Shown here: positions 17,249-36,852 of the stretch, piece after piece
How positions within the stretch are numbered: position 1 is the first letter of the stretch
Layout: every line of letters begins with the position of its first letter
Assembly (NCBI RefSeq): GCF_035989305.1
Contig: NZ_CP108514.1
Location: forward strand, 8,660,501-8,724,500
Source: Streptomyces sp. NBC_01233
GTDB lineage: Bacteria > Actinomycetota > Actinomycetes > Streptomycetales > Streptomycetaceae
DNA: 64,000 bases
Reading direction: 5' to 3'
Made by a program: the position numbers and the translations under genes
Notes under the pieces: generated by a model
Seen by the model: only the letters and a program-made list of their open reading frames with translations
Told to the model about the DNA's origin: nothing
The model's database searches: none

Positions 17249-18523
17249 CTAGAACCAGTTGACGGTGAGCGGGAACGCGGTGGTGACGGTGGTGCCGGTG
17301 CTGTCGGTGGCGGTCGCCGTGACCTGGACCGTGCCGCTGCCCCACGGCTTGCCGGAGATGCGTCCCGAGGCGGCGTCGACGGTCAGGCCCCAGGGCAGGC
17401 CGGTGGCCGCGTACCGGTAGGCGGGCTTGCCGCCGGTGGCGGTGAGCTGGATGGTGCAGGACTGGTTGAACTTGCAGGTCTGAGGGCCGGGGTTGGCCAG
17501 CTTCAGATCACCCGGAGTGGGGGTGGGGGTCGGCGTGGGGGCCGGTGTCGGGGTGGGCGTCGGGGTGGGCGTGGGGGTCGGGGTGGGTTCCGTCGAGGTG
17601 TCGAACACCTCTCTGATCGGCTGGACGTTGGCCGCGTTGCCCGCGTGCGTCGCCGTGCCGAAGAGGTCCTCGAAGGTCCGCAGCAGGTGGTGGTGGTTGA
17701 AGGCCGTGGCGTACTTGCCCGTCTTGACCTTCGCGCCGTGGAAGACCGTGGCGATCTGGTTGGAGCCGAGGTAGTTGTCCTCGTCCCAAGTGAGCACCAG
17801 AAGACTGTTGTTGGCCTTCGCCCACTGGGCGTAGGCGTCGATGTTGTTCCTCGTCCAGGTGTCCCCCGTGTTCACGGAGCACGAGTGCATGTCGTTGCAC
17901 TGGTTGGGGACCACGAAGGAGAGGTTCGGCAGCGCCGCGAAGTTGTTCTGCGGGAACTGCGCCCATGTCTTGCCGGTGTTCAGCGGCACGTTCTTGAAGG
18001 CGAACCACGGGTTGTGCTTCTGCGCGTACTGGCCGTTCGTGCAGGCCGTGGACCCTTCGCTCGGCAGGTCCTCGTTGTACGTCGCGAAGGTCTTGCCCGC
18101 GGCGATCAGCTCCTGGCCGAGGTTCGGCGCGGTCATCGACTGCGGGGTGTAGCAGCCGTCGCCCGTGATGCCCTGGGTGGCGCCGGAGAAGAGGTTGAAG
18201 TAGTTCGGCTGGCTGGGGTGGGTCAGCGCCTTCATGCCGGTCAGGCTCGCGCCGCCGTTCGCCAGCTGGTTGACGTACGGAGCGTTCGCGCTGCCGATGA
18301 TCTCCCCGTACTGCTTGTTCTCGTACACGACGACCACCACGTGGTCGTACGTCGGCAGCGCGGCCGCGGCCGCCGCCGGCGCGGCCGAACCGCCCTCCGC
18401 GGCCTGCGAGTTGGCCACGGTGAAGGCGCCCAGCAGGCCGAGCGCGCCGAGCCCGGCCACGAGCGCCGACCAGCGGGCCCGGCGTCTCATCTCGGCCCTG
18501 GGCGAGGGTGAGGGGGTGGGCAT
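17249..18523 (-). CDS. Secreted acid-phosphatase-like phosphoesterase with PT linker and Ig-like C-terminal domain
   Basis: The start is ATG 18523 behind GGAGGAAAC; the frame is open further but without a site. The 424-residue protein has an Arg-rich signal peptide ('AEMRRRARWSALVAGLGALGLLGAFTVANSQA'), so it is exported. Residues ~55-300 match the phosphoesterase family PF04185 (acid phosphatase/phospholipase C group): 'YDHVVVVVYENKQYGEIIG', 'ALTHPSQPNYFNLFSG', 'LPSEGSTAC', 'LVLTWDEDNY', 'NHHHLLRTFEDLFG'. Then comes a (Pro-Thr)n linker and an ~85-residue putative-Ig (He_PIG-like) domain 'GDLKLANPGPQTCKFNQ...GLPWGLTVDAASGRISGKPWGSGTVQVTA'. The stop codon lies in the CTAG hit by IS-C; the coding sequence is intact. 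It follows the PKS operon with its own ribosome site after 38 bases. Confidence 0.92.
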   Translation of the reverse strand: MPTPSPSPRAEMRRRARWSALVAGLGALGLLGAFTVANSQAAEGGSAAPAAAAAALPTYDHVVVVVYENKQYGEIIGSANAPYVNQLANGGASLTGMKALTHPSQPNYFNLFSGATQGITGDGCYTPQSMTAPNLGQELIAAGKTFATYNEDLPSEGSTACTNGQYAQKHNPWFAFKNVPLNTGKTWAQFPQNNFAALPNLSFVVPNQCNDMHSCSVNTGDTWTRNNIDAYAQWAKANNSLLVLTWDEDNYLGSNQIATVFHGAKVKTGKYATAFNHHHLLRTFEDLFGTATHAGNAANVQPIREVFDTSTEPTPTPTPTPTPTPTPAPTPTPTPTPGDLKLANPGPQTCKFNQSCTIQLTATGGKPAYRYAATGLPWGLTVDAASGRISGKPWGSGTVQVTATATDSTGTTVTTAFPLTVNWF

Positions 18524-18561
18524 GGGTGTTTCCTCCCTGTCGTGGGTCCAGCGACCCGGTG

Positions 18562-19641
18562 TCAGTCCTCGCGCCGCGCCGCACCGGCCACGGCGATGTT
18601 CAGGAAGCGCGGTACGGGCCGCCCCCGGCCGCGGAAGTCCTCCGCGACCGCGGCCCGCACCGCCGTCAGTCGTGCCTCGGGCAGCAGCACCAGCACGCTC
18701 CGCCCCGGCCGCGGCCCGGGCTGCCACGCACTCAGCGCACCGGCCCGCCGGGCACAGGACACCGCCCGCGCCAGCTCCCGCGACCGGTCCGCGGCCTCGC
18801 CCCGGACGGCGACCAGCACCAGTCGGGCCCCCGAGGCCGCCGGGTCGAAGGGCACGTACCGCTGTCGCCGCCGGGGTTGCGGACCCACCAGCAGGGCCCG
18901 GCCGGGCCGGGCGAAGAGCACCGCCCGGCGCAGCCCGTCGTCCCCGTCCGGCAGCGCACCGGCCAGCAGCCGGGCCAGGTCCGCGCGGTCCGGCCGCTCA
19001 CCCGCCGCCGCGTGCACGTCGGCCACCGCCAGCGCCACCGCGCACTCGGCGGGCTCCGCCGTGGCCAGGCCGGCGGCCCCCGTGAGCGAACCCTGCACGT
19101 GCAGGTCCGTTCCGCCGCGGCCGTGACCGGCACGGGCCAGCTCCCGCAGCACGGTGTACGGCCGCACGGCCCAGTCGGGTGCGGCGGGAGGCGGCCCGGA
19201 CAGCGTCAGCGGCAGATCGCAGCTGTCCGTGGGGTGGGCGAGGGAGCTGAGCCGCACCAGACCGTCGGTGCGCGGGGCCGCGGCAGCAGCCGTGGGCCAG
19301 CCGGCCGCCGCGACCAGCCCGGGCGAGCCCAGGTGGAAGGCGTACGGCGCGCTCCACACGGCGGCGGGGGGCCGCCCGTGCGCGGCCTCCAGCGCGTAGG
19401 CGACGAGCCGGAACAACGGATCGGCGGTGGCCCGCCTGGCCAGGTCGCCTCCGGCGGGGTCAGCCGAGTCGCCTCCGGCAGGGCCTGGGGCCTCCGTCCC
19501 GTCCGGGCGGAAACCGGGGCTCCGCCCCGGACCCCGCGCCTCGAACTCCCCCGGACTCCGTCCTGGGGTCCCCCCGGGCGAGGCCGGATCGGCTCCCGCA
19601 GCCGGGGGCAACCGGCGCCCGGAGGCTCCCGGGCCCGTCAC
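18562..19641 (-). CDS. Degenerate galactokinase-like GHMP-family protein
   Basis: The start is GTG 19641, overlapping the methyltransferase stop (GTGA). The 359-residue product resembles galactokinase in order and spacing: 'VWSAPYAFHLGSPG' in place of 'W.APGRVNLIGEHTDY', 'PRTDGLVRLSSL', 'DWAVRPYTVLRELARAGH', 'GGTDLHVQGSLTGAAGLATAEPAECAVALAVADVH' in place of 'GADL...VP.GAGLSSSAA.E.A.ALA', and the C-terminal 'RFLNIAVAGAARRED'. The substrate-binding GEH.DY and ATP-loop GLSSSAA signatures are both altered (GLATAEP). It is therefore probably not a working sugar kinase; it may be a structural or binding protein for the cluster product. The first ~80 residues are Gly/Pro-rich and disordered-looking. 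Confidence 0.65.
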   Translation of the reverse strand: MTGPGASGRRLPPAAGADPASPGGTPGRSPGEFEARGPGRSPGFRPDGTEAPGPAGGDSADPAGGDLARRATADPLFRLVAYALEAAHGRPPAAVWSAPYAFHLGSPGLVAAAGWPTAAAAAPRTDGLVRLSSLAHPTDSCDLPLTLSGPPPAAPDWAVRPYTVLRELARAGHGRGGTDLHVQGSLTGAAGLATAEPAECAVALAVADVHAAAGERPDRADLARLLAGALPDGDDGLRRAVLFARPGRALLVGPQPRRRQRYVPFDPAASGARLVLVAVRGEAADRSRELARAVSCARRAGALSAWQPGPRPGRSVLVLLPEARLTAVRAAVAEDFRGRGRPVPRFLNIAVAGAARRED

Positions 19642-21494
19642 GGCGTGTCCTTGCGGGCCAGCATCCGGTAGGCGTTGCCGCCGTCCGTGCGGTGGGCCGC
19701 CGCCGTGCGCAGGGCGTCGAGTACCGCCGCGCCCGCGAAGGCCGGCAGGGCGGCCAGCCGAACGGCGTGGGCGAGGGCCCGGGTGCGGGCCGTGGCCGGG
19801 GGACCCCACGGGCGGTCCGGGTCCGGGGCCAGCCGCGTCGCCGTGAGCGCCACCGCGCCGAAGAAGTCGTTGCCCTGGTGGGCCGGTCCGTGCTCCTCGG
19901 CGAGGACGGTGAACCCCCGGTCGGCCAGTGCCTCGCGCAGGTTCGCGGCGGGCACCAGGTGCTGGTGCTGGGGCTGGAACCAGGGCAGCCACACGGGGCC
20001 GAGCAGCCGGGCCATCCGTGATTCCGGGTCGGGCAGCTCGATGGTCAGGAAGCCGCCGGGGGCCAGGACGGAGGCCGCCGCGTCCAGTTCGGCGAGCGGA
20101 TCCCGGGTGTGTTCCAGGTAGTGGTACATGCTGACCACCTCGTACTGGCCCGCCAGCTTCGACGCGAACTCCGGGAACTGCCCCTGGTACCCGGTCTCCA
20201 CCCAGCCGCGGCGCTCCGCCTCGCGGACCCCGTCGCCCATGTCGAGCCCGTCGAAACGGGTCCGCGGCCAGACGGCCCGCGCCGTGTTGCAGAAGTGGCC
20301 GTGTCCGGTGCCCACATCGAGCCAGGACAACGGCTCGGCGTGCGGCAGGAGCATCTCGGCGCGCCCCCGGTAGGCGGCGCCCAGCCTTCCGAAGACCGTG
20401 CCCGCGCCCTCGCCGCCGCGCCCGTCGTAGAAGTCTCGGTAGTAGAACTCCAGGCCCTCCGGGGTCAGTCGGGGGTTCTGGAAGACGTGCCCGCACTCCC
20501 CGCACTGTTCCAGGGTGAAGAGGACCGGTTTGCCCTGGAGCAGGTCGGGCACCCGGACCCGGACGGCGAGCCGGCCGGAGCCGCACCACGGGCAGTCCGG
20601 GCGGCGCGGGTCGAGGAAGTGTGCGACACCCGTGGTCAGTTCGGCCTGATAGGCGGCGGCCCGCGCGCGGTCCTCGCCGCTTGCGTCCCAGCCGGCCGCC
20701 GCGGCCGTACGCAGGGCGGCGTCGAGCGAGCGCAGCGGCCGGGCCGCGGTGGCCCGGGCCAGATCGGCGGGCCTCAGCGGGGAGCCCGGCCCGCCCAGGG
20801 CGAGGTACGGCTGGAGCCAGTACAGCCCGGCCGCGGCCGCGCCCCACCGGCCCTGGCGCAGCGCGACACCCGCCAGCAGCGCCAGCCCGCCGAGCTGCGC
20901 GGCGGCCAGCGCCCCCGGCGGCAGCCCCCGGGCCCGCAGCTCGGCGACCCGTGCCGGTCCCCGGGGCTCGTCGGGTCCTCCACAGCTCAGGCCGGGGGCG
21001 ATGGCCAGGCCGGTCGCGTCGGCGGCGTACTCCTTCAACCGGCGGGTCAGTGCGCTGAGTTCCGCCGGATGGGGGCGCGGCCCGACGGGATCCACCCCGG
21101 CCCGCGCCAGCACCTCCTCGGCGACGAGCACGGCGAACCCGGCCCCGCGCCCCTCACCGAGCCGGTCCCACCGGTACCGGGCGGGATCGACCAGCCGCAG
21201 GAGCCCCAGCGCCCGCTCGGCGGCCAGGTCCGCGGGCAGCAGGTCCAGCACCCGCAGCCCCTCCCTTTCGGCGTGTGCGCAGGCGGCGAGGAAGGTGGCC
21301 GCATCGGGCTCGACGCCGCGGGCGGTGAGCAGCCGCCATCCGGCCGGCCGCGGCACGCCGGCTGCCGCGGACGGGGTCGCGGGCAGCACCGGGATCGCCC
21401 GAAGCCGGCGCCCGGCGCGTACGGTGCCCGCGGCGAGTGCGGCCAGTAACACCGCGGAGGTCCACCGGACCCGGGAGAGCGGGGGTGGCGTCAT
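19638..21494 (-). CDS. Membrane-anchored SAM-dependent methyltransferase with zinc ribbon
   Basis: 618 residues from ATG 21494, which overlaps the upstream stop (ATGA). A hydrophobic N-terminal stretch ('AVLLAALAAGTVRAGRRLRA') may anchor it. Residues ~40-290 are a helical domain of unknown role. Near residue 300 is a two-knuckle zinc site 'CPWCGSG' and 'CGECGHVFQNPRL', the usual lead-in to class I methyltransferases of the C-methyl/O-methyl sugar type. The SAM motif 'LSWLDVGTGHGHFCNTA' is near 390, followed by 'YEVVSMYHYLEHTRDPLAELDAAASVLAPGGFLTIELPDPES'. It probably methylates the polyketide/lipid product or its sugar. It sits fourth from the end of a translationally coupled operon. Confidence 0.85.
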   Translation of the reverse strand: MTPPPLSRVRWTSAVLLAALAAGTVRAGRRLRAIPVLPATPSAAAGVPRPAGWRLLTARGVEPDAATFLAACAHAEREGLRVLDLLPADLAAERALGLLRLVDPARYRWDRLGEGRGAGFAVLVAEEVLARAGVDPVGPRPHPAELSALTRRLKEYAADATGLAIAPGLSCGGPDEPRGPARVAELRARGLPPGALAAAQLGGLALLAGVALRQGRWGAAAAGLYWLQPYLALGGPGSPLRPADLARATAARPLRSLDAALRTAAAAGWDASGEDRARAAAYQAELTTGVAHFLDPRRPDCPWCGSGRLAVRVRVPDLLQGKPVLFTLEQCGECGHVFQNPRLTPEGLEFYYRDFYDGRGGEGAGTVFGRLGAAYRGRAEMLLPHAEPLSWLDVGTGHGHFCNTARAVWPRTRFDGLDMGDGVREAERRGWVETGYQGQFPEFASKLAGQYEVVSMYHYLEHTRDPLAELDAAASVLAPGGFLTIELPDPESRMARLLGPVWLPWFQPQHQHLVPAANLREALADRGFTVLAEEHGPAHQGNDFFGAVALTATRLAPDPDRPWGPPATARTRALAHAVRLAALPAFAGAAVLDALRTAAAHRTDGGNAYRMLARKDTP

Positions 21495-22663
21495 AGCAGC
21501 TTCTCCAACCGGTCGGCCGCGGCGGCAGCCCCGCCCGCCGCGGCGAATGAGGTCTGGATCCGCCGGGCGGCCCGGCGGGGGCCGGGATCGTCCAGCACGG
21601 CCGTGAGCGCGTCGCGCAGTTCCTCGGCCCGGGTCCTGCCGAAGCGCACCCGGATTCCGGCTCCTGCCTCGACCACCTGCCGGGCCACGATCGGCTGGTC
21701 GTCCCGGATCGGGGCGACGACCAGCGGCAGCCCGTGCGCGAGGGCCTCGCAGACGGTGTTGTGGCCGGCGTGGCAGACCACCGCGTCCAGGTGCGGCAGC
21801 AGTTCCAGCTGCGGGACGCTCTCCTGGAGCAGTACGTGGCCGGGCACCGGCCCGATGAGCGCGGAGGGCGCCGCCAGCACGAACTGGACCTCCTCGGCGA
21901 GCCGTTCGGCGGCTCCCAGTACCGCGCCGTAGAAGCGGGCACCGGCCTCCTGGTTGAGGGTGCCCAGGGACACCAGCACCCGCCGCCGCGCCGGGTCCAG
22001 CCGCTGCCAGGGGAATCCGGGCGCGACCGGCCGGGCCCCGAAGGCCGGCCCGACGTAGGCGTGGTGGGCCGGGAACTCCCCGGCGGTTCCGACGAGTTCG
22101 GGAGTGGAGAAGACCAGGACCAGCCGCTCCGAGAACCGCGGGTCCCAGCCCCCGGACTCCCGCGCCGCGTCACCGAACTCCGCGAGCAGGCCGGAGATCT
22201 GCCCGGCCACCCACTCCCCGACCTTCGGGAAGTCCGCGAAGGGCCGGGTCAGTTCCGCCGAGGTGCTGGCGGAGGTCGCCCACGGCACCCCGAGCCGCCG
22301 GGCGACCAGCGGCCCGGCCAGGGCCTGCTGGTCGGCGACCATCACGTCCGGCCCGAACGCCCGGACGGCCCGTTCCACCCCCGGCACCATCGCCCGGGCG
22401 AGCGGAACCAGCGCCTCCTCCCACAGGAACCGCAGCGCCCCCACCCCGCGCAGATCGCGCCAGCGCTCGTGCAGCGCCGAGTACCCGCCGCCCGCCTCCT
22501 CGCCGGCCGGCAGGATCCGCGCCTGCGCGGGCAGCAGCCGGGCCAGCGCGGAGGCCGGCCCCGCCCAGGCGATCTCGTGTCCCCGGGCCGCCAGTTCGGC
22601 CCCGACGGCCACCGTCGGATTGACGTGCCCCGCCAGCGGGGGCACGGTGAACAGCACCTTCAC
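21491..22663 (-). CDS. GT1-family (UDP-glycosyltransferase / macrolide type) glycosyltransferase
   Basis: The start is GTG 22663, overlapping the hydrolase stop by four bases. The 390-residue protein has the GT-B fold with 'VKVLFTVPPLAGHVNPTVAVGAELAARGHEIAWAG' at the N-terminus and the nucleotide-sugar site 'PQLELLPHLDAVVCHAGHNTVCEALAHGLPLVVAPIRDDQPIVARQVVEAGAGIRV' near the C-terminus; the HAGHNT segment is the family's HGG.GT equivalent. Such enzymes transfer a sugar from an NDP donor to a polyketide, sterol or lipid acceptor. In this operon the acceptor is probably the chain made by the synthase. No sugar-biosynthesis genes lie nearby, so a primary-metabolism NDP-sugar is the likely donor. 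Confidence 0.92.
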   Translation of the reverse strand: MKVLFTVPPLAGHVNPTVAVGAELAARGHEIAWAGPASALARLLPAQARILPAGEEAGGGYSALHERWRDLRGVGALRFLWEEALVPLARAMVPGVERAVRAFGPDVMVADQQALAGPLVARRLGVPWATSASTSAELTRPFADFPKVGEWVAGQISGLLAEFGDAARESGGWDPRFSERLVLVFSTPELVGTAGEFPAHHAYVGPAFGARPVAPGFPWQRLDPARRRVLVSLGTLNQEAGARFYGAVLGAAERLAEEVQFVLAAPSALIGPVPGHVLLQESVPQLELLPHLDAVVCHAGHNTVCEALAHGLPLVVAPIRDDQPIVARQVVEAGAGIRVRFGRTRAEELRDALTAVLDDPGPRRAARRIQTSFAAAGGAAAAADRLEKLL

Positions 22664-23526
22664 CGGACCAGCGCTCCCGCCCGCGGCCGTACCGCTGCCG
22701 CAGCCGTCGTGGCGGTCGAGTCCGCCGGAGCCCTCGCGGCTGTCGCGTCGAGATGGGCCAGCACGGACTCCCGTAGCACCCCACTGCTCTCCTTGAGCAC
22801 GTCGTGCCCCAGACCCGGCAGGATCCGCAGCGCCCCCCGCGGGGCGTGGCGGGCCAGCTCCCGGGCCCCCGGCACCAGTTCGGAGTGCTCGCCGCAGACG
22901 GCCAGGACCGGGCAGCGCAGCCGGGCGTAGTCGGCCGGGGTGAAGGTGCGGCTCGCGGCGATGTCGTCGATGAGCGTGGTGCGGTTGAGGAGGGCGTCGG
23001 CGATGGCCGTGAGGTTGGCGGCCTTGCGCAGGCGCAGGGTGAGCAGCTCGGCGGGGACCGGGCTGTCCTCCAGGCTGAGCGCGGCCGCCGACAGGGTGTC
23101 CACCATGTTCTCCACCCACGCCCCGCCGAGCGGGGGTTCGAGGAGGGTGAGCCCGGCGACGAGGTCGGGCCGGGCCAGGGCGGCGTGCAGGGCGAGGGTC
23201 CCGCCGTAGCTGTTGCCGACCAGGTGGACCGGGCGCTGCCCGAGGCCCAGCGCGCCGAGCAGGGCGAAGAGGTCCCGTACGGCGGTGCGGCTGTCGTAGC
23301 CGGAGGCCGGGCGCTCGGTACGGCCGTGGCCGCGCAGGTCGTAGAGGACGGCTTCGTGCCCGGCCCGGGCCACCGGCACGGCCAGGGGGCAGTAGAAGGA
23401 GGAGAGGTTGTCGACGACCAGCCCGTGCAGGAAGACCACGACCGGGCGGTCCGGGGCGTCGGCTCCGTCGGCGGCCGGGAGCCGCTGGACGTGGAAGCGC
23501 AGGGAGTTGGCGAGGACGACGGCCAT
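22660..23526 (-). CDS. Alpha/beta hydrolase (possible product-release thioesterase)
   Basis: 288 residues from ATG 23526, seven bases after the ACP stop. Alpha/beta-hydrolase motifs in order: 'VVVFLHGLVVDNLS' (oxyanion HG), 'DLRGHGRTERPA', the nucleophile elbow 'HLVGNSYGGTLALHAAL' with Ser in GNSYGG near residue 103, an acidic residue in 'LAVCGEHSELVPG', and the catalytic His in 'LPGLGHDVLKES'. There is no signal peptide. By position between a free ACP and tailoring genes it may release or edit the acyl chain from the synthase, acting as a discrete thioesterase; a simple esterase role cannot be excluded. The tail after residue ~265 is Ala-rich and low complexity. Confidence 0.88.
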   Translation of the reverse strand: MAVVLANSLRFHVQRLPAADGADAPDRPVVVFLHGLVVDNLSSFYCPLAVPVARAGHEAVLYDLRGHGRTERPASGYDSRTAVRDLFALLGALGLGQRPVHLVGNSYGGTLALHAALARPDLVAGLTLLEPPLGGAWVENMVDTLSAAALSLEDSPVPAELLTLRLRKAANLTAIADALLNRTTLIDDIAASRTFTPADYARLRCPVLAVCGEHSELVPGARELARHAPRGALRILPGLGHDVLKESSGVLRESVLAHLDATAARAPADSTATTAAAAVRPRAGALVR

Positions 23527-23533
23527 GGCGGGC

Positions 23534-23854
23534 TCAGCCGGCCGACGCGGGCGAGTCGCCCGCCGAGACCCGGGCCAGGGAGGTGTGCGTGATCCGGCCG
23601 ATGTGGGTGACGAGCTCGCCGACGGACATGGCCAGGATGGCGTCCATGTCCTTCTCCGCCAGGAAGCCCATCAGGTCCACGTCGGCGCCGTAACGGTGGT
23701 GGAGCAGCTCGGCGAGGGCCACGAACTCGATGCTCTCCAGGGCGAGGTCCTCGTTGAACGTCGTCTTCATCGTGACCTCCTCCGCGAGGAGGTACTCGTC
23801 GCCGACGATCTCCACGAGCATGCCCGTGATCTCGGTGAGGATGTCAGTTGCCAT
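23534..23854 (-). CDS. Discrete acyl carrier protein
   Basis: 106 residues from ATG 23854; the start overlaps the end of the PKS2 gene by 11 bases. 'TTFNEDLALESIEFVALAELLHHRYGADVDLMGFLAEKDMDAILAMSVGELVTHI' is a carrier-protein helix bundle, and Ser41 in 'LALESIEFVAL' is the phosphopantetheine attachment site (normally D/E-S-I/L). The acidic helix 2 is typical. It provides a second, free carrier in addition to the ACP domain in PKS1, and may hold the starter, the final chain or a tailoring substrate. The phosphopantetheinyl transferase domain of PKS2 is the obvious activating enzyme. Confidence 0.92.
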   Translation of the reverse strand: MATDILTEITGMLVEIVGDEYLLAEEVTMKTTFNEDLALESIEFVALAELLHHRYGADVDLMGFLAEKDMDAILAMSVGELVTHIGRITHTSLARVSAGDSPASAG

Positions 23855-26800
23855 GACGGTTCTCCGTGAGGTGGAAGGGGACGGGGGAGGGCGCGGTCGG
23901 ACGGGCGGTCCAGGCGACGACGTGGTCGGGCGGCGCCGGGTCGGCGGGCTCGGCGCCGGCGGGCGGCGTGCCGGTCAGCGGTGGCCAGGTGAGCGGTGTG
24001 CCGAGCCGTGTCGTGCGGATCGGGTACGGGTGCCCGTCCGGGGACGTCACGAGCAGGGCGCCGGAATCCGGATCACCGGCCACCCGCCAGTCCCGCGGCC
24101 GGCCGCCCAGCCCGCCGCCGTCCGCCTTGGCGGCGGCCTCCTTGGCGCACCACAGGGCGGTGAGGGCGGCCGGCAGACCGGTGCCCCCGCGGGCCGCCAG
24201 CCGTTCGGCGAGGCGGAGTTCGTCCTGCCCGAGGGCGATCCGGATCAGCGCGTCCGGGTCGGCGGTCACCGGCTCCACGTCGATGCCGACCGGCCGCGCA
24301 GGGTCGGCGAGGGCGACCGCGATCCGGTCCTTGTGGGCGATGGACAGCCGGTGGCCCCGGGTCAGCGGGCCCTCGGCGAGCGGCCGGCCGGCCGGATCGT
24401 TGCCGATCGGCACCTCCGCCGGGAACACCGGCCCGGCTCCGCCGTCCCACAAGAGCCCGCGCAGGGCGTCCTTGGCCGCGATCCGGCCCAGCAGCCAGGG
24501 TGCCCGGGCGCGCGGCGGCAGCCGCTCGTAGGCGGCCCGCTCGGCGGCGCCCAGGTAGCGGCGCATCACCAGCTCCTGCGAGGCGGGATCGGTCCAGCGG
24601 CGCCGGGCCAGGCACCAGCCCTCGGGCCGGGGCTCGCCGATCCCGCAGACCTCCGGGGTGAACTTCATCGGCCAGACCCGCTCGTCGGCGCCGAACCGGC
24701 GGTACGTCCACCCCTCGATCCGGGCCCACACCCCGCCGCAGGCCCGGCGCAGTTCGAGGTCACCCCGCACGGTGACGTCGTGCACCTCGCGGATCCGGGC
24801 GGTGGCGGTGATCAGCTCCTGCGGGGCCGGCGGCGGCCCGGAGAACCGGATGCGGTCCACGGTGGCCGGAAAGACCAGCCGGTCCACCGGGAGCCGCAGC
24901 TGCATCCAGTGCCCGAAGAGCTGCCCGGCGGCGTCGAGGAGCGCGCCGGGGTCGGGCAGGGCCCGCAGCACGCCGTGGATGCCGTCCGAGCCGACGGTGC
25001 GCACCTCGTGGACCCCGGCGAAGCGCGGCCCGTGGAACATCCAGCGGTCCCGGTACAGGGCCGCGGCGCTGACGGGCGCGGGCCGGGGGTCGCGCAGCGG
25101 CGTGTCGTCGGGTGCGGGCGGCTCCCCGTACCGCTCGCCGAGCAGCACGACGACCGAGGCGTACTCCCCGAGGGCGACGCGCAACCGGCCGGGCCCGTCA
25201 CCGTGGACGCGGATCTCGACGTCGACGGCCGGCTCGACGGCCAGCCACCGCAGGGCCCGTACGTCCTCGTAGCCGACGACGGCGAGGCCGGGCGGGGCGT
25301 GCCGCCGGGCGGCGTCGGCGGCCAGCTCCAGCATGGTGGTCATGGGCACGACGGGGAACCGGTCGGAATCCTCCGGCCAGCCGTCGGGCTGGAGGTACAC
25401 GCAGTGGTCGCGTACGTAGGGCAGTGCGGCGAGCGAGAGCCGCAGGAGTTCCTTCCCCGTGGACCTTCCCGAACCGTTGAGGGCTTGAGCCGGCGGCGGT
25501 GCCGGTGCCGTGGCCTGCGCCTGTGCCTCTGCCGGGGCCTTCGGCGGTCCTGCGGTCGACCAGGCGTCGGTGACGGCCCGGGCGGCCGAGCCGGCGTCGG
25601 CCAGCACCGCGTCCAGGGCGGAGAGCAGCACCGGGCGGGCCGCTCCCGCCGCCGCGGACCGGGGCGCGGGAGTGCCCGTCGGCCGGGCCGGGGCCGGAGC
25701 CGGCCCGGCCGACGGGCCCGAGGCTGCGAGGACGACCGGGACCGGGGCCGGAGCCGTGCTCGGGGCGGCGGCCGGGGCCGTGCCCGGGGTGAGGAGGCCG
25801 CTCAGGGAGGCGCGGGCCGCCTCGCTCAGGCGGACCAGCGGGGACCCCAGGTCCAGGGGCACGCGGAGTCCCGGTCCGGCGGGTACCGGCTGCGGCGCGG
25901 CCGGGCCGGGGCGAAGCGCCGAACCGGCCGCCGGGTCCGCCCCGGCCAGGAGCCCCCAGCGCGGTGCGTACCCCTCGGCCCAGAGCGCGGCGCAGGTGCG
26001 GTTCAGCGCCGCCAGGCCCGGCAGACGGGGGGAGGAGGTCGACACCGAGAGGTGGGGACGCTCGCGCAGGGTGTCCTCGACGAAGCCCGGCAGGCTGCCC
26101 GGCCCCAGTGTGACGAAGCTGCGCACGCCCTCCTCCTCGTACAGCCGCAGCGTCAACTCGCGGAAGCGGACCGGCTCCAGGAGGTGGCGGACCACCAGGT
26201 CACGCACCTCCTGCGGCGCCGACGGGAACGGCTCGCACGTGGTCGCCGACCACACCGGGAGGGAACCGGACCGCAGCGGCAGCCGGTCGAAGGCGGCGCG
26301 GACCTGGCCGAGGTACGGCTCCCACATGGGGGTGTGGAAGCCCGAGCGGAACGGCAGTTCCTGGCCGAGCACCCCGTCGGCGCGCAACCGCTGTACCACC
26401 GCGGAGACTTGGTCCGGATCCCCGCAGACCACCGACTGGTGCGGGCAGTTGTCGTGGCTGACCACCACCGCGTCCAGGCCGTGCAGTGCCGCCTCGGCCC
26501 GCCGGGCGCCACAGCCCAGTGCCGCGTACACGAGGTCCGGGACCCGCAGATCGTCCGGCCGCAGCGAGTCCAGGAAGGTGTCGGCCGCCTCCTGCGGGTA
26601 CATCCCAGCGGCCACCATCGCCGCCCACTCGCCCAGGCTGTGGCCCGCCAGCACATCGGCCTCGATGCCGAGTCCGGGCAGCACCCGGGCGAAGAAGCGG
26701 CCGGTCGCGATCGCGTCCAGGGCCCGTTCCACGAGGGTCGCGCCCCGGGTGAGCCGGGGCGGCGCCAGCGCGAGCCGGTCCGCCACGTCGTCGATCACGG

Positions 26801-28583: not shown

Positions 28584-31500
28584 CGCCTCCGTCCTCCCGT
28601 GCCCTTGCCATCAGGACCACCTGTACGTCGGTTCCGTGCGACAGCTCGGCGAGGAACGCGGCGGTGCCGGCCGTCGGATCGATGAGCGGGATGCCGCGCC
28701 GGGCGTACGCACGCTCCAGCTCGGGGGTGACCATCCCGCCCGCCTCCGCGGCCCAGGGGCCCCAGTCGACCGACAGCACCCGGCCCGGGAACGACTCCGC
28801 CCAGCTGTGCGCGAGGCCGTCGAGGGCGTCGTTGGCCGCGGCGTAGTCGGTCTGGCCGCGATTGCCGTAGACCCCGGCCACGCTCCCGAACAGGGCCAGG
28901 AAGCGGGGGGCGGGCGCCGAGCCGTGTTCGGCGGACGCGGCCGCCAGGTGGCGGGCGCCGGCCACCTTCGTGGTGAACACGTGCGTGAAGTCGGCCGGTT
29001 GCTTGTCGCTCAGCAGGCCGTCGCGCAGGACTCCGGCGCCGTGCACGATGCCGTCGAGCCGGCCGTGGCGCCCCCGTACGTCGGCCACGACGGCCCGTAC
29101 GGCCTGCTCGTCGGTGACGTCCGCGCAGTGGTAGCGCACGGACGCGGCCGCCGCGGTGAGTGCGGCCAGGGTGGCGCGCACCTCGCGCTCGGCGAGGATC
29201 CGCGAGGCCGCGGCCTCGATCTCCGCGGGCGTACGGAGCCCCGCGGCGATCAGGGCGGCGCGGAGGGCGACCCGGTCCTGGGCCTGGGCGAACTCGTCCG
29301 CGGAGGGGGAGGCGGGGGCGGGTTCGGGGGTGCGGCCGAGGAGCTCGATGTGGCATCCCGTGGCGTGGGCCAGGGCCAGGGCGGTGCGGGCGGTGATGCC
29401 GCGGGCTCCGCCGGTGAGCAGGACGACGGAGTCGGGGCCCAGGGGCGGCGCGGTGCCCGCGGCCGGTGTGCCTCCGGCTGGGGCGGGTGGGGTCAGTGGG
29501 GCCGGAATGGGTGCGCGGGTGGTACGGGCGCCCTCGGTCGTGTACCCGACGGACGAGTGGGGGGTGTTGCAGCTCAGTTCTGCCAGGAGTTGCGCGGCGA
29601 CCTGTTCGGGGGCCTCCTTGGGGTGGACGTCCACGGCGCGGACGAGCGTGCCGGGGAATTCGAGGGCGGCGCTGCGGGCGAAGCCGTGCAGGCCGGCGGC
29701 GGGGGCGCCGGGTGCGGTGACGAGCAGCAGCCGCTGCGTTCCGTCCGTGAGGGTGCGGCGCAGCGCGGGGAAGAGCCGGGGGAGGACGGGCTCCGAACCG
29801 GTCCGCAGACCGGTCAGGTCGACGATCGCGTCGAAACCGGGCTCGGGTTCGGTGAGGGGGAGTGGCTCGGCCCCGTATGCCTCCAGTGCCGTGGCGAGCG
29901 CCTGGGCGAGGCCCTGGCCGTCGTCGACCACTCCGATCCGCAGGCCGCGGAGGGCTTCCGGGGCCGGGGTGGCGGGGGGTGCGGGGACGGTGTCCACCCG
30001 GAGGCGGGTGAGCGGGGGTGCGGACGGTTGGGCGGGGGGTGCCGGACGAGGGTCCGGCTGTGGTCCGGTGTGCGTGGTGATCCACTCGACTATGGCCCGC
30101 AGCGTCTTGATCCGGGACAGCTCCTCGACCGCGGACTCGGCGGAGCCGCCCGGGTCCTGGGGGAGCCCGATCCGGTCGGCCAGGGCTCCGATGATCTCCA
30201 CGCGCTTGATGGAGTCGATGGAGAGGTCGGCCTCCAGGTCCAGGTCGGGGTCGAGCATGTCCAACGGGTATCCGGTCCGGGTGTGGACGATCTCCAGGAC
30301 GACCTCCATGACCGCCTCGGGGGACCGGGCGGGGGGCGCGGCTTCGCCGGGGCTTGGGGGAGGGGTGGGGCCGGGCGCGCGCCGGGGCGTCTCCTCGGGC
30401 GCCGAACGTGGCGGGGGGTAGGCGGGCCGGGCCGTATTGCGTTCGTCGCCCTGCGGGGATCGGCCCGGCACACTCCCGGCCCCGGCGGAAGCGGCCTCCG
30501 GCCCGTTCGTCGGCGCGCCCAGGTAACCCAGCAGGACGTCCCGCTGCGCCGCGACCAGTTCCCGGGTGCTGCGGAGGTACTCCAGGACCGCCTCCTCGCG
30601 ACCTGCCGTCCTGCCCGTCTCGGTACCTGCGGTCTCATCTGTGGTCCGACGCGCGGTCATTCCCGCACCTCCATTCGCACCGGTTTCCGTGGGCGGGGCT
30701 TGGCGTGGGGTCGGCGCCACGCGTTGGGCGGGGCGGAGGCCGCCGGGGACCGGGGTGCCGGCTGCCGTGCGGACCAGGTGGCCGTCCACCAGCCAGCCCG
30801 GGCGGCGCGGGGCGCGCTCCGGGAGGCGGGTGGTGCGGCCGCGGAACAGGGCCTCCGGTGCCACCGGCACACCTGCCGAGGTCAGTTCCGCCAGTGCGGT
30901 GACCAGCCGGACCAGGCCGTGTTCGCCCGGTACGTCCAGCGGGACCACCGTGTGGGGGCGGTCGGACAGGATGCGGCCGATCAGGGCGGTGAGGACCCGG
31001 CCGGGACCCGCCTCCACGAAGGTGCGGACGCCGGCCGCGTACATGGCCTCGACCTCGTCGACGAACCGGACCGGCTCCGCGACCTGGCGGGCCAGGAGGT
31101 GCTGGATCTCCTCGGCCGATGTCGGATACGGGCGCCCTGTCGTGTTCGACCAGACGGGGAGGGCCGGGGCTGCCATCGGTGTGTCCGCCAGTGCCGTGGC
31201 GAGGTCCTTCGACGCCTCTGACACCACCTCGCTGTGGAAGGCGCAGGCCACCGGGAGGGGCTCTGCCGACAGTCCCGCCTCGCGGAGTGCGGATACCGCC
31301 TCTTCGACGGAGGGTGTGGGGCCCGAGATCACGCACTGGCGGGGGGCGTTGTGGTTCGCGATGGTGCATCCGGTGCGTGCGGCGACCTCGTCCGGCGTCG
31401 CTGAGACGGCCGCCATCGAGCCCGGGTCCGCGCCGGCGGCCTTCAGGATCGCCTCGGCGCGGCGCGCGCTCAGCCGTAGCAGGCTCTCGGTGTCGTAGAC

Positions 31501-34500
31501 CCCGGCCGCCCAGAGCGCGGTGAGCTCCCCGTACGAGTGCCCGGCCACGCAGTGCGGCCGTACGCCGAGCTCGCCGAGCAGCAGATGCGCCGCTGCCCCC
31601 GCCAGTCCCAGGGCCGGCTGGGCCACGCGGGTGTCGGTGACGGCCGCCTTTTGGGCCGCCCGTCCCTCGGCGGTGAAGGCCGCCGGCGGGAACATCGCCG
31701 ACACGACGGGGGGCGGAGCCGAGTCCAGGAGGGTGCGCAGGGCGGGGAAGGAGGTGAACAACTCGTTGAACATGCCCGGGCGTTGGCTGCCCTGGCCGGG
31801 GAAGAGGAAGGCGGTGAGGCCCGGGTTCTCCCTCGTGATGTGGATGCCCGTGCCGTGGGTGAAGGTGCAGGCCTGTTCGAGGCGGGCCGCCAGTTCGTCG
31901 AGGTCGGCGGCCACGATCGCCACCTGGACCGGGTCGGAGCCGGCGGCGGTTTCCGCCGCGAGGTCGCGCAGGGGCCAGGGGCGTCCCGCCGTGTCGTTCT
32001 CCTCCAGGCGGGCCGCGAGCCGGGCCATCGCGCGGCCGGCCGCCTTCCGGTCCGCGCCGCGGAAGCAGAACAGCTCGGCCGGCCACTCCTCCAGGCCGTG
32101 CCGGGGCTCCTCCGCGCCCCCGTACCCGGCCAGCACCGCATGGTAGTTGGTGCCGCCGAAGCCGAAGGCGCTCACTCCGGCGATCCGCCGCTCCGCGGGT
32201 ACGGGCCAGGGGCGCGCCTCGGTGTCGAAGGAGAACGGGCTGGTCTGCGCCCGCCAGGCCGGGTTCGGCGTGTCGATGTGCAGGGTGGGCGGCCTGACGC
32301 CCGTGTGGACGGCCCGGGCGGCCTTGATGAGCCCGGCGAGTCCCGCGGCGCACTTGGTGTGGCCGAGCTGGGATTTGACGGAGCCCAGGGCGCAGGAACC
32401 GCTGGTGGCTCCGGAGGCGGTGAACAGGTCGCTGAGGACGGCCAGTTCGGTGCTGTCGCCGACCACCGTGCCGGTGCCGTGCGCCTCGACCAGACCCACC
32501 TCGGCCGGGGCGATGCCGGCCCGTGCGTAGGCCCGCTCCAGGGCCCGCCGCTGTCCTTCCGGGCGGGGTGCGGTCAGGCCGAGGGAGCGGCCGTCGCTGG
32601 CGGACCCCACCGCCTTGATCACGGCGTACACCCGGTCGCCGTCCCGCTCCGCGTCCGCCAGCCGCTTCAGGACGAGCGCCCCCACCCCCTCGCCGAGGGC
32701 GATCCCGTCGGCGGCCGCGTCGAAGGGCCGGCAGCGGCCGCCGGGCGAGAGGGCGCGGACGGAGGCGAACATCAGGTAGTCGTTGATCCCGTTGTGTACG
32801 TCGGCGCCCCCGCACAACACCATGTTGCTGTCCCCGTCGCGCAGTTGGCGGCAGGCGAGGTCCAGGGCGGCGAGGGAGGAGGCGCAGGCGGCGTCGACCG
32901 TGCAGTTCGCCCCGCCCAGGTCGAGCCGGTTGGCGACCCGGCCCGCGATGACGTTGGCGAGGATCCCGGGGAAGGAGTCCTCGGTGAGCCGCGGCAGTTG
33001 CTCGTCCAGGGAGGTCGGCAGCTCGCCCAGGTAGGCGGGGTGCAGGGCGCGCAGCCCGTACGCGCCCGCCAGTTCGGTACCGGCCTCCGCGCCGAAGACC
33101 ACCGAGGTCCGCGAGCGGTCGAAGGCGCGCTCCTTGCCGTAGCCGGCGTCGCGGAGGGCCCGCGCCGAGATCTCCAGGGCCAGCAGCTGCACCGGCTCGA
33201 TCCCGGCGAGGGAGGAGGGCGGGATGCCGTGCGCGAGGGCGTCGAAGGGCACCGGACCGAGGAAGCCGCCCCAGCGGGAGGGCGTGCGCTCCCCGGCCCG
33301 GGCCGGGTCGGGGTCGTAGTAGAGCGCCGGGTCCCAGCGCTCGGCCGGCACCTCCGTGACGGCGTCCGTCCCGGCCAGGACCATCGCCCAGTAGGCGGCG
33401 AGGTCCGGCGCGCCGGGGTAGGCGCAGGCCATGCCGACGATGGCGATGTCGAGCGGGTCGGGCGCCTGCGCGGCCCCGCCGTCCGCGAAGTCCCGGGCGC
33501 GGCGCTGCAGCAGTGCGGTGGCTCCTTCGGTGACCTGCGCGTGCAGTGCGGCGATCGTGGTGGTCCCGGTGCGCAGGGTCGCGGCCTGCCCGAGCATGAA
33601 CAGCCCCTCCGCGTACTGCTGTTCCTCGTCGACGGCCTCCAGCCGGTCCGTCGCGCGCCGCAGGCCCTTGCTGGCGACCCGCAGCCGCCCGAGGTTGAGC
33701 CGCTCCAGCTCCTCCCACATCTCGCGCGGTTCCACGCCGCTCTGCGCGAGCCGCCGCCGGGTCGCCTCGAAGGTCTCGGCGTACGGGGTGTCCGCACAGC
33801 GGGTGGCGTGCCCGGGCGCGGTGCGCAGCAGTACGGTGTCCGCGCACTCCACCGCCGCCCGCTGGAAGCCCGGCAGTACCGCGCCCGCCGCCACGGCCTC
33901 CTCGGTGAACAGGTACGCGGTGCCCATCAGCACCCCGATCCGCGCGCCGCGCCCGGCCAGCGGAGCCGCGGCCGCCAACGCCATCGCGGCGGACCGCTCG
34001 TCGTGGATCCCGCCCGCGAACAGCAGGTCCAGCGCCTCGGGTTCGGGGCAGGACAGCAGCCGCTCGATCTGCTCCTCCCACAGCGGGAACGAGGCGCGCG
34101 GCCCGACGTGTCCGCCGCACTCCAGCCCCTCGAAGACGAACCGCCGCGCCCCCTCGGCGAGGTACCGCTCCAGCAGGCCGGGCGAGGGCACGTGCAGGTG
34201 GGTGCGGATCCCGGCCGCCTCCAGTGGGGCCGCCTGCGCCGGGGTGCCCCCGGCGATGATCGCGTGCGGTGGACGGGCCCCGGTCACGGCCGCCAGCTGC
34301 GCCCGCCGCAGCTCGGGCGGGGCGAAGCCGAGCAGCCCCACGCCCCAGGGGCGTTCCCCGAGCCGTTCCGCGGTCTCGGCCAGGAGCCGGCGTACGTCCG
34401 GGCCCTCCATCACCGCGAGCGCCAGGTACGGGACCCCGCCCGCGGTGGCGACCGCCTCGGCGAAGGCCGCCTGGTCGCTCACCCGGGTCATCGGCCCCTG

Positions 34501-35409
34501 CACGACGGCCGGCGGCCGGGTCCGGGCAGCCGCCTCCACGTGCCCGCGGATGGCCGCCCGTACGGCGAGGAGCACGCCGCCGGTGGTCCGGTGGCGCTCG
34601 GCGAGCCGGGCCGCGCAGGATCCGTCCTGTCCGACGGGCAGCAGCTGCGTCCGCAGGTCCCGGGCGCCGAGCAGCAGGTGCGCCGGCCCCTCGGGCGGGG
34701 TGAGGTCGGGTCGTGCGAACACCCGGTGCCCGTCGATGATCCGGGTCTCGGAACCGTCCATCGCCCGGAGCGCGGCGGCCACTTCTGCCGGTAACCCGGC
34801 CTCGCCCTCGACGGTCAGGGCCAGTTGTGCGTCGAGGAGTACCCCGGTGGCGCCGCCCGCGACGGCCGCGGCCGCCGTGTGCGGGCCGATCCCGCCACAG
34901 GCCCGTACGGGTACCCGGATCGAGGGGTCCCCGAGCAGCTGCTGGAGCAGTACGAAGGTGGTGGCCGCGCCCACCCGGCCGCCGGCCTCGTGGCCCTTGG
35001 CGACGAGCGAGTCCGCCCCCGCGGCCACGGCGGTCGTGGCCTCCGCCAGGCTGGTGACCTCGGCCCACACGCGGGGCCGGCCGGCCGCGGCGGCCCACGC
35101 GGCCACCCGCTCCGGGGTGTGCCACCCGGTGTCGGCGAGCAGCACGGTGTCCACCTCGGCCGGCAGTTCCTCCGGTCCGAGCGGGCAGCCCGCGGGCACC
35201 CGCACTCCGTATCTGCCGCTGCCGCCGAGCCGGCGGCCCGACTCCGCGAGGCCGTCCCGTGCGGCGTTCGCGTCCCGGCCGAGGTCGAGCAGTCCGAGGG
35301 CCCCGGCGCGTGCGGCGGCGGTCACGATTCCCGGGCGGGGCTCCTCGAAGGGACTGACCGCGACGACCAGATCGCGGGTGGCGGCGGACTGCGGGGGATG
35401 GGGGGTCAC
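28576..35409 (-). CDS. PKS1: PfaD-like (tandem NMO) - KS-AT-ACP-KR megasynthase
   Basis: The start is GTG 35409 behind AAGAGGAG; ATG 35439 lacks a site. The product is 2277 residues. Residues ~10-250 and ~290-590 are two nitronate-monooxygenase-fold segments: the first has 'LVAKGHEAGGRVGAATTF' and 'VRACGGIGPHTAAAAVAGGATGVLLD', the second 'PPAVVQGPMTRVSDQAAFAEAV', 'FEGLECGGHVGPRASFPLWEEQI' and 'LLFAGGIHDERSA', like the FMN enoyl reductase PfaD. KS ~650-1095 has Cys in 'VDAACASSLAALD' near 841. AT ~1200-1480 has 'LFPGQGSQRPGM' and 'GHSYGELTALWA'. One ACP near 1733 ('DLEADLSIDSIKRVEII'). KR ~1990-2260 has 'LTGGARGITARTALALA' and 'SVAGVYGNRGQTDYAAANDALDG'. There is no DH or TE. Codon 206 is TTA (34792-34794), implying bldA dependence. 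Confidence 0.93.
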   Translation of the reverse strand: MTPHPPQSAATRDLVVAVSPFEEPRPGIVTAAARAGALGLLDLGRDANAARDGLAESGRRLGGSGRYGVRVPAGCPLGPEELPAEVDTVLLADTGWHTPERVAAWAAAAGRPRVWAEVTSLAEATTAVAAGADSLVAKGHEAGGRVGAATTFVLLQQLLGDPSIRVPVRACGGIGPHTAAAAVAGGATGVLLDAQLALTVEGEAGLPAEVAAALRAMDGSETRIIDGHRVFARPDLTPPEGPAHLLLGARDLRTQLLPVGQDGSCAARLAERHRTTGGVLLAVRAAIRGHVEAAARTRPPAVVQGPMTRVSDQAAFAEAVATAGGVPYLALAVMEGPDVRRLLAETAERLGERPWGVGLLGFAPPELRRAQLAAVTGARPPHAIIAGGTPAQAAPLEAAGIRTHLHVPSPGLLERYLAEGARRFVFEGLECGGHVGPRASFPLWEEQIERLLSCPEPEALDLLFAGGIHDERSAAMALAAAAPLAGRGARIGVLMGTAYLFTEEAVAAGAVLPGFQRAAVECADTVLLRTAPGHATRCADTPYAETFEATRRRLAQSGVEPREMWEELERLNLGRLRVASKGLRRATDRLEAVDEEQQYAEGLFMLGQAATLRTGTTTIAALHAQVTEGATALLQRRARDFADGGAAQAPDPLDIAIVGMACAYPGAPDLAAYWAMVLAGTDAVTEVPAERWDPALYYDPDPARAGERTPSRWGGFLGPVPFDALAHGIPPSSLAGIEPVQLLALEISARALRDAGYGKERAFDRSRTSVVFGAEAGTELAGAYGLRALHPAYLGELPTSLDEQLPRLTEDSFPGILANVIAGRVANRLDLGGANCTVDAACASSLAALDLACRQLRDGDSNMVLCGGADVHNGINDYLMFASVRALSPGGRCRPFDAAADGIALGEGVGALVLKRLADAERDGDRVYAVIKAVGSASDGRSLGLTAPRPEGQRRALERAYARAGIAPAEVGLVEAHGTGTVVGDSTELAVLSDLFTASGATSGSCALGSVKSQLGHTKCAAGLAGLIKAARAVHTGVRPPTLHIDTPNPAWRAQTSPFSFDTEARPWPVPAERRIAGVSAFGFGGTNYHAVLAGYGGAEEPRHGLEEWPAELFCFRGADRKAAGRAMARLAARLEENDTAGRPWPLRDLAAETAAGSDPVQVAIVAADLDELAARLEQACTFTHGTGIHITRENPGLTAFLFPGQGSQRPGMFNELFTSFPALRTLLDSAPPPVVSAMFPPAAFTAEGRAAQKAAVTDTRVAQPALGLAGAAAHLLLGELGVRPHCVAGHSYGELTALWAAGVYDTESLLRLSARRAEAILKAAGADPGSMAAVSATPDEVAARTGCTIANHNAPRQCVISGPTPSVEEAVSALREAGLSAEPLPVACAFHSEVVSEASKDLATALADTPMAAPALPVWSNTTGRPYPTSAEEIQHLLARQVAEPVRFVDEVEAMYAAGVRTFVEAGPGRVLTALIGRILSDRPHTVVPLDVPGEHGLVRLVTALAELTSAGVPVAPEALFRGRTTRLPERAPRRPGWLVDGHLVRTAAGTPVPGGLRPAQRVAPTPRQAPPTETGANGGAGMTARRTTDETAGTETGRTAGREEAVLEYLRSTRELVAAQRDVLLGYLGAPTNGPEAASAGAGSVPGRSPQGDERNTARPAYPPPRSAPEETPRRAPGPTPPPSPGEAAPPARSPEAVMEVVLEIVHTRTGYPLDMLDPDLDLEADLSIDSIKRVEIIGALADRIGLPQDPGGSAESAVEELSRIKTLRAIVEWITTHTGPQPDPRPAPPAQPSAPPLTRLRVDTVPAPPATPAPEALRGLRIGVVDDGQGLAQALATALEAYGAEPLPLTEPEPGFDAIVDLTGLRTGSEPVLPRLFPALRRTLTDGTQRLLLVTAPGAPAAGLHGFARSAALEFPGTLVRAVDVHPKEAPEQVAAQLLAELSCNTPHSSVGYTTEGARTTRAPIPAPLTPPAPAGGTPAAGTAPPLGPDSVVLLTGGARGITARTALALAHATGCHIELLGRTPEPAPASPSADEFAQAQDRVALRAALIAAGLRTPAEIEAAASRILAEREVRATLAALTAAAASVRYHCADVTDEQAVRAVVADVRGRHGRLDGIVHGAGVLRDGLLSDKQPADFTHVFTTKVAGARHLAAASAEHGSAPAPRFLALFGSVAGVYGNRGQTDYAAANDALDGLAHSWAESFPGRVLSVDWGPWAAEAGGMVTPELERAYARRGIPLIDPTAGTAAFLAELSHGTDVQVVLMARAREDGGDE

Positions 35410-36784: not shown

Positions 36785-36852
36785 CGGGGCATGCCCCCTC
36801 GGCATTGAACGATGCTCGAACGGGAGGGGATTGGGCCTGGCGGGCCCGGCTG

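Follow-up and report, generated by a model that had tools for sequence, protein, structure and literature searches.

The stretch of DNA analysed here, hereafter the window, comprises 64,000 nucleotides of the 10.3-Mb genome of Streptomyces sp. NBC_01233 (G000:C1:8660501-8724500). Seven minus-strand genes in it (18562-35409) encode, in order, two megasynthases of the polyketide synthase (PKS) kind, PKS1 and PKS2, a free acyl carrier protein (ACP), an alpha/beta hydrolase, a GT1-type glycosyltransferase (GT), a methyltransferase and a galactokinase-like protein. This gene set probably encodes a 'secondary lipid' synthase of iterative type I, together with a cassette for glycolipid tailoring; a long, mostly reduced chain would be built, transferred by a second acyltransferase (AT2), released and glycosylated. 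The cluster is real, well conserved and of lipid type, and its kind was catalogued in 2011. What is new here is the recurrence of the GT, free ACP and hydrolase as a cassette across phyla, together with a division of labour between two acyltransferases (ATs); neither was found in the open literature searched (titles, starts of abstracts and passages).

The successive intergenic gaps across the set measure -8, -11, +7, -4, -4 and -4 bases. Because the genes run head to tail with gaps of only -11 to +7 bases, they very likely form one operon. Its products contain ketosynthase (KS), AT, ketoreductase (KR), dehydratase (DH), enoyl-reductase (ER) and phosphopantetheinyl transferase (PPTase) domains, as follows.

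28576-35409 (-): PKS1 megasynthase, 2277 amino acids, ER (two NMO-type repeats)-KS-AT-ACP-KR by Pfam; GTG start at 35409 with GGAAGAGGAG upstream
33502-35376 (-): PKS1 ER region, two tandem NMO-type repeats (residues ~12-292 and 293-636)
32275-33450 (-): KS1, Cys842-His977-His1017 (Pfam)
30868-31809 (-): AT1, malonyl type, with Gln1264, Ser1292, Arg1317 and His1392 (Pfam)
30070-30339 (-): acyl carrier domain of PKS1, single copy, Ser1733
28750-29427 (-): PKS1 KR (Pfam)
23844-28583 (-): PKS2 megasynthase, 1579 amino acids, KS-AT-DH-PPTase by Pfam
27285-28538 (-): KS2, Cys225-His363-His404 (Pfam)
25944-26831 (-), limits approximate: AT2, with Ser649 and His750 kept, Ala621 at the Gln position and Leu674 at the Arg position
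24681-25442 (-): PKS2 DH of PS-DH type, His1060 and Asp1217 (Pfam)
24039-24293 (-): C-terminal PPTase of PKS2 (Pfam ACPS)
23534-23854 (-): free ACP, 106 amino acids, Ser41; weak NCBIfam AcpM match (E=1.8e-4, below cut-off) and no Pfam match
22660-23526 (-): alpha/beta hydrolase, thioesterase-like, Ser106 and His241 (Pfam Abhydrolase)
21491-22663 (-): GT1-type GT, 390 amino acids (Pfam EryCIII-like/UDPGT; TIGR01426 below cut-off)
19638-21494 (-): class I S-adenosylmethionine-dependent methyltransferase, 618 amino acids (Methyltransf_23), with CxxC pairs and an extra N-terminal region
18562-19641 (-): degenerate galactokinase-like (GHMP-like) protein, 359 amino acids (NCBIfam galactokinase E=1e-6, below cut-off)

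The relationships of the two KS domains were examined in an IQ-TREE phylogeny of 71 KS sequences, made up of 67 of the 175 KS in a broader FastTree tree and four modular KS of the same genome as outgroup; the root is a chosen one, and IQ-TREE gave a warning, with long branches of chain-length factors (CLFs) meeting the modular outgroup. KS1 and KS2 fall into two separate clades, each supported at 100/100, with 17 and 16 rows from the same loci, which is consistent with two synthases travelling together; the extra KS1 row is Frankia canadensis (L099), whose contig ends early. Both clades unite actinomycetes, Bacteroidota (Chitinophaga, Pedobacter, Chryseobacterium), a Dehalococcoidia bin and a Holophagae bin. 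KS1 further forms one group (100/99) with Type P synthases (Azotobacter, Beijerinckia and others) and eight other rows, and the four modular KS are set apart at 100/100. IQ-TREE gives no settled order among KS1, KS2, PfaA, PfaC and enediyne KS. The sole enediyne KS (L123) is a long branch without a settled place, and enediyne kinship was set aside; a FastTree hint (support 0.7) of kinship between KS2 and the PfaC KS found no resolution in IQ-TREE and is not claimed. A second pair of PfaA-like KS genes lies outside the window in the same genome (G000:C1:8168313-8188681; L139, L128) and occupies its own branch.

The cluster falls among the 'secondary lipid synthases' described by Shulse and Allen (2011; PMC3098273). 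As that class is described there, KS, ACP and KR lie together in the pfaA homologue among domains consistent with a fatty acid or polyketide synthase; PKS1 has this content. The class is also marked by a proximal KS that groups with validated lipid synthases, and KS1 groups with the Azotobacter and Beijerinckia Type P synthases. In the same source, Type M includes Frankia, Type N Chitinophaga and Chryseobacterium, Type P Azotobacter and Beijerinckia, and Type L Streptomyces coelicolor. By this genus listing and the position of F. canadensis, rather than through the named Type M strains, the cluster is probably of Type M.

The gene set is common in its own genus. At E<=1e-30, 49 of the 150 genus genomes sampled, its own included, have a match to the DH-PPTase part of PKS2, and this same part (residues 1000-1579) matched 697 of 8000 scored proteins at E<=1e-5. 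Among the 120 PKS2 matches listed the names are generic and the organism, where given, is Streptomyces, as it is for the nearest named proteins to those of the window. The order PKS1-PKS2-ACP-hydrolase-GT-methyltransferase recurs on two Streptomyces plasmids (L008, L009; about 54% PKS1 identity) and in seven further genomes, the methyltransferase being divergent in four of the seven. PKS1 identity is 49-56% in the nine cassette loci L008, L009 and L034-L040. One further locus, L033 from the relative G012, retains of the cluster just the C-terminus of PKS2 with the ACP, hydrolase, GT and methyltransferase, beside unrelated genes; this cut inside PKS2 is either a rearrangement or an assembly error, and the locus was excluded from the counts.

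Contigs of named genomes were scanned with a Beijerinckia-centred alignment of eight PKS1-like proteins, and the best 80 of at least 489 confirmed matches were kept, so the scan is no census. The clade comprises 56 loci, the window included, of which six lie on contigs that end before the cassette, leaving 50; since near-copies are among them (plasmids L008/L009, several Chryseobacterium, L037/L098), the clade counts are of loci and not of independent events. The free ACP is present in all 50 loci that reach that far. In 48 of them it is followed within 1.6 kb by a hydrolase (in L065 the hydrolase is just upstream of PKS1, and L095 has none), and the GT was found in 47, being absent from L085, L114 and L095. 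The full order PKS1-PKS2-ACP-hydrolase-GT holds in 46 of the 50, in three phyla, with a variant gene order in a Chloroflexota bin. At the 37 loci outside the clade, some of them on short contigs, the GT family occurs in none (0/37, against 47/50 within), which supports the glycolipid reading; free ACPs were found in nine and the hydrolase family in 11. The methyltransferase is more restricted, occurring in 27/33 actinomycete clade loci, 0/17 other clade loci and 1/37 outside. Among the Bacteroidota, 14 of 15 loci have the PKS1-PKS2-ACP-hydrolase-GT order, and the two that were scanned (of 15) both continue with a further GT domain and a pair of condensation-superfamily acyltransferases, one with a PapA_C match. 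PapA-type acyltransferases belong to an enzyme class that builds mycobacterial glycolipids, which favours the glycolipid reading.

The catalytic residues of PKS1 are well kept in the clade. The Cys-His-His triad of KS1 and all four tested AT1 residues (Gln, Ser, Arg, His) are present in 56/56 members, while the KR retains Ser in 49, Tyr in 48 and Lys in 48 of the 56, with one other residue at each position and gaps in the remainder. The two ER repeats align with each other at an hhalign probability of 97.7 (E=2.4e-12), the NMO Pfam match covering residues 300-578. An AlphaFold2 model of residues 1-640 (mean predicted local distance difference test score, pLDDT, 93.4) has two successive strand/helix series and is consistent with two barrels. 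Glu141 of the first repeat is kept in 88/88 aligned sequences, window included.

Similarly, the KS2 triad is intact in all 49 aligned clade members, and the His and Asp of the PKS2 DH are each kept in 48/49. The PPTase motif is less well kept (Asp 36/49; Glu of Lys-Glu-Ala 41/49; several gaps). No second KS-like (CLF) domain was found behind KS2 with a hidden Markov model that detects one in L121 and L125. These features bear on whether the operon encodes a polyunsaturated fatty acid (PUFA) synthase making a methylene-interrupted product. PKS1 does match the PfaA model TIGR02813 and both KS share a wide group with the Pfa KS; the KS, AT, KR and ER are homologous, and AT2 resembles PfaB in having neither Gln nor Arg. 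The 900-bit score of PKS1, however, is below the PfaA cut-off of 1010 bits, and PUFA synthases have tandem ACPs, a CLF after the PfaC KS and two FabA domains, as in a Persicobacter reference (L121; called Pfa-like from its domains) with six ACPs, two KS-type domains and two FabA; the window has one ACP, a single KS in PKS2 with no CLF, and one PS-DH with no FabA. We therefore regard a PUFA product as very improbable.

An initial annotation of this DNA had labelled the cluster PUFA/hglE-type, a label whose PUFA part fails on the absence of tandem ACPs in PKS1, of a CLF and of a FabA-type DH, all of which the Persicobacter control has. Its inventory fared better: Pfam agrees with it on two KS, two AT, one ACP in cis, KR, DH and PPTase in PKS1 and PKS2, both KS carry the active Cys within a full triad, the free ACP is there (with its weak AcpM match and conserved Ser), and the downstream hydrolase, GT1 enzyme and methyltransferase match Abhydrolase, EryCIII-like/UDPGT and Methyltransf_23. 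The single ER-like region that it described does exist, but as two tandem NMO-type repeats, and the two ATs, though present, are not equivalent, as AT2 has no malonyl-binding pair. The single ACP was treated as an anomaly, yet Azotobacter ArsA also has one, so one ACP is ordinary; nor is it a hallmark of the clade, since PKS1 has two ACPs in Bacteroidota relatives and three in the Dehalococcoidia bin. KS domains lying outside the PUFA/hglE/enediyne branch would have contradicted the annotation, and this did not occur: both group with secondary-lipid synthases apart from the modular KS, although the order within that wide group is not settled. Given this grouping and the GT as a conserved partner, its suggestion of a glycosylated lipid is reasonable.

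The second acyltransferase is the most distinctive part of PKS2. In 49/49 clade members its malonyl-binding pair is gone, with Ala or Gly at the Gln position and Leu, Phe or Tyr at the Arg position, and its catalytic Ser and His are kept. A direct alignment of AT1 and AT2 (14 sequences) places a shortened Arg region in AT2. PfaB, shown to be a long-chain acyltransferase, is reported to lack the Gln-Arg pair (PMC12895367), and the same loss with Ser and His retained is seen in every aligned AT2. Because the malonyl-binding residues are lost while Ser and His are kept, AT2 is probably a chain-transfer enzyme like PfaB.

In the proposed route, AT1 would load malonyl onto the single ACP of PKS1, where KS1 would extend the chain and the KR (PKS1), DH (PKS2) and ER (PKS1) would reduce it over repeated cycles, giving a long chain that may be mostly saturated or sparsely hydroxylated. 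The PPTase of PKS2 would activate the ACPs, and KS2, as an intact second condensing enzyme, could add an extra extension or a head-group step. AT2 would not load malonyl; it would pass the extended chain on, its most likely acceptor being the free ACP, after which the hydrolase may release the chain and the GT1 enzyme glycosylate it. In this lineage, the product is probably also methylated. What the data show is the domains, the residues, the gene order and their conservation; the length and reduction state of the chain, the acceptor used by AT2, whether release precedes glycosylation, and what the product is and does are inferred.

Conservation of the tailoring proteins was assessed in alignments of the free ACP, hydrolase and GT that also take in the outside-clade loci where each family was found. 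The Ser of the free ACP is kept in 59/59 sequences. The hydrolase Ser is kept in 58/60 (Cys in two) and its His in 49/49 sequences with a letter there, while His13 and Asp111 of the GT are kept in 46/46 and 45/45, counted in the same way. The CxxC pairs of the methyltransferase look Zn-ribbon-like by eye.

A rather unlikely alternative is a glycosylated polyketide with a partly reduced chain (polyene or hydroxylated), nearer to a macrolide or polyene glycoside than to a lipid; in this case KS2 and the hydrolase might together give it a head group of beta-keto, pyrone or lactone type. It would suit the intact KS2, the macrolide-GT-like GT and a P450 gene (38209-39477) that could act on such a product. 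However, KR, DH and ER are all encoded, and almost every aligned relative retains the residues tested in them; long fatty chains are the product of the closest characterised synthase (PMC4824345); and the P450 gene lies beyond two other genes, its close matches among the 93 loci searched being confined to L093 and L110, with matches of 31-32% in L100 and L108.

Several points weigh against the glycolipid reading itself. To our knowledge, no product is known for any clade member, and none is named for this cluster type in the titles, abstract starts and passages searched. GT1 enzymes also act on non-lipid polyketides, and the window GT is nearest to macrolide-type models (TIGR01426); moreover, the GT is missing from three of the 50 clade loci. 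An editing role for the hydrolase is conceivable; both its family and the free ACP also occur outside the clade, so neither is tied to the GT. A Beijerinckia Type P cluster has a GT of another kind alongside, which means that having a GT next to the synthase is not in itself peculiar to the clade. The role of AT2 is predicted from its residues, and PfaB has a GYSMG motif and an inactive KS' domain, whereas AT2 has GHSLG (His before the Ser in 48/49 members, Tyr in one) next to an intact KS2.

The galactokinase-like protein closing the operon had been noted as GHMP-like; the gene is indeed there, with a match that is weak. A GLSSSA-type serine-rich loop is the usual galactokinase/GHMP motif, and it is absent from all 11 GHMP-like sequences aligned (window included), L113 coming nearest. 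Homologues occur in L104, L107, L108, L115, L102, L106, L113 and L091; the gene follows that of the methyltransferase in Lentzea, Actinomadura and Actinocrispum, and no methyltransferase was found in L091. These homologues in Lentzea, Actinomadura and others rule out a gene specific to the window, and the sequences would allow a conserved pseudokinase as one possibility.

The initial annotation had also drawn the cluster as 17249-35409. Its larger part stands as the operon, which is here defined as ending at 18562, and the first gene of that range is left out. The following genes flank the operon.

17249-18523 (-): phosphoesterase/He_PIG gene, starting 38 bases past the last operon gene
35891-36784 (+): LysR-type regulator, ATG at 35891 (Pfam), divergent from PKS1; candidate operon regulator
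38209-39477: the P450 gene mentioned above

Cotranscription of the phosphoesterase gene with the operon is possible; its enzyme part has matches only in L093 and L097 among the 93 loci, so it is not a core part. The LysR gene is in the same place only in L093, L097 and L110 of these loci. The He_PIG C-terminal domain is common to the 17249-18523 protein and that of 36805-38124 (+), with 83% identity over 90 residues; the two proteins are otherwise unlike, as if the domain had been copied or homogenised. Past the downstream side of the operon, 13775-16877 holds two DDE transposase-like genes. TTA codons occur in PKS1 (codon 206) and the methyltransferase (codon 16), and none is present in the corresponding S. 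avidinii frames.

A gene set present in about one third of the sampled genus genomes and retaining its core order in distant phyla can be expected to yield a useful product, and the conserved contrast between a malonyl-loading AT1 and an AT2 without malonyl-binding residues leads to a definite hypothesis on the exit of the chain from the synthase. Among catalogued systems, Type M is reported from Frankia, S. avermitilis, Actinosynnema and Renibacterium with product unknown (PMC3098273), and the cluster resembles it in being actinobacterial and in having F. canadensis within the KS1 clade. The main text of that source has no word beginning 'glycosyl'. Type N (Chitinophaga, Chryseobacterium) is likewise given there without a known product; other species of these genera (not C. 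pinensis or C. gleum) fall in both KS clades, but their loci differ from the window in having two ACPs in PKS1 and no methyltransferase of the window family. The S. coelicolor genes SCO0124-0129, which the initial annotation had offered as a parallel, are sometimes annotated as PUFA/EPA-like (PMC6414726, PMC5932044), an annotation only. Type L, to which S. coelicolor is assigned, is defined by a separate 5' pfaD and a fused KS-CLF-DH2-AT (PMC3098273), whereas the window has its ER fused to PKS1 and no CLF; the parallel was rejected on this published definition, without sequence comparison.

The nearest characterised relative in this comparison is ArsA of Azotobacter vinelandii (L044), which has the NMO-KS-AT-ACP-KR order and single ACP of PKS1. 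ArsA is a fatty acid synthase making C23-C25 chains (PMC4824345; C22-C26 in PMC3098273), and arsABCD produces alkylresorcinol and alkylpyrone cyst lipids under the LysR-type activator ArpR (PMC4824345). Beside the window operon there is also a LysR-type gene (35891-36784), a parallel not used as evidence since LysR genes are common and that of the window occurs only in its closest lineage. A phenolic-lipid system of Type P (ars-like) would explain the shared domain order and the wider group of KS1, yet we give it very little credence. The ars system has type III PKSs, a DH-PPTase stretch without KS-AT, and no free ACP, hydrolase or GT of the window families. No type III PKS is among the operon Pfam matches, nor was any of at least 50 bits found in the clade loci L008-L120 searched (the window flanks lie outside that search), against 8/37 loci outside the clade, all Type P-like with one KS each and no free ACP. 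On Beijerinckia (L010) and Methylosinus (L011) plasmids, Type P-like clusters adjoin an ATP-binding cassette (ABC) transporter with a periplasmic adaptor, and L011 has a TolC-family gene. Such a transporter and adaptor are reminiscent of the heterocyst glycolipid exporter.

Unlike the heterocyst glycolipid (hgl) system, the window has no ABC exporter among its 17 genes scanned with Pfam. HglE is not among the sequences of the KS tree, and the likeness to hgl is one of working, a long-chain synthase with a dedicated GT (HglT, PMC11804610). Extending the glycolipid reading, we tentatively suggest, as a possibility that we hold to be on the doubtful side, a carrier-switch lipid pathway in four phyla: the synthase pair would build the chain on the PKS1 ACP, and the fused KS2-AT2 of PKS2, with an AT2 that would have lost malonyl binding, would pass it when complete to the dedicated free ACP for presentation to the hydrolase and GT, here perhaps in a pathway tied to development (TTA codons). 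Such a pathway would, if real, give the heterocyst glycolipids a counterpart that is widespread among bacteria.

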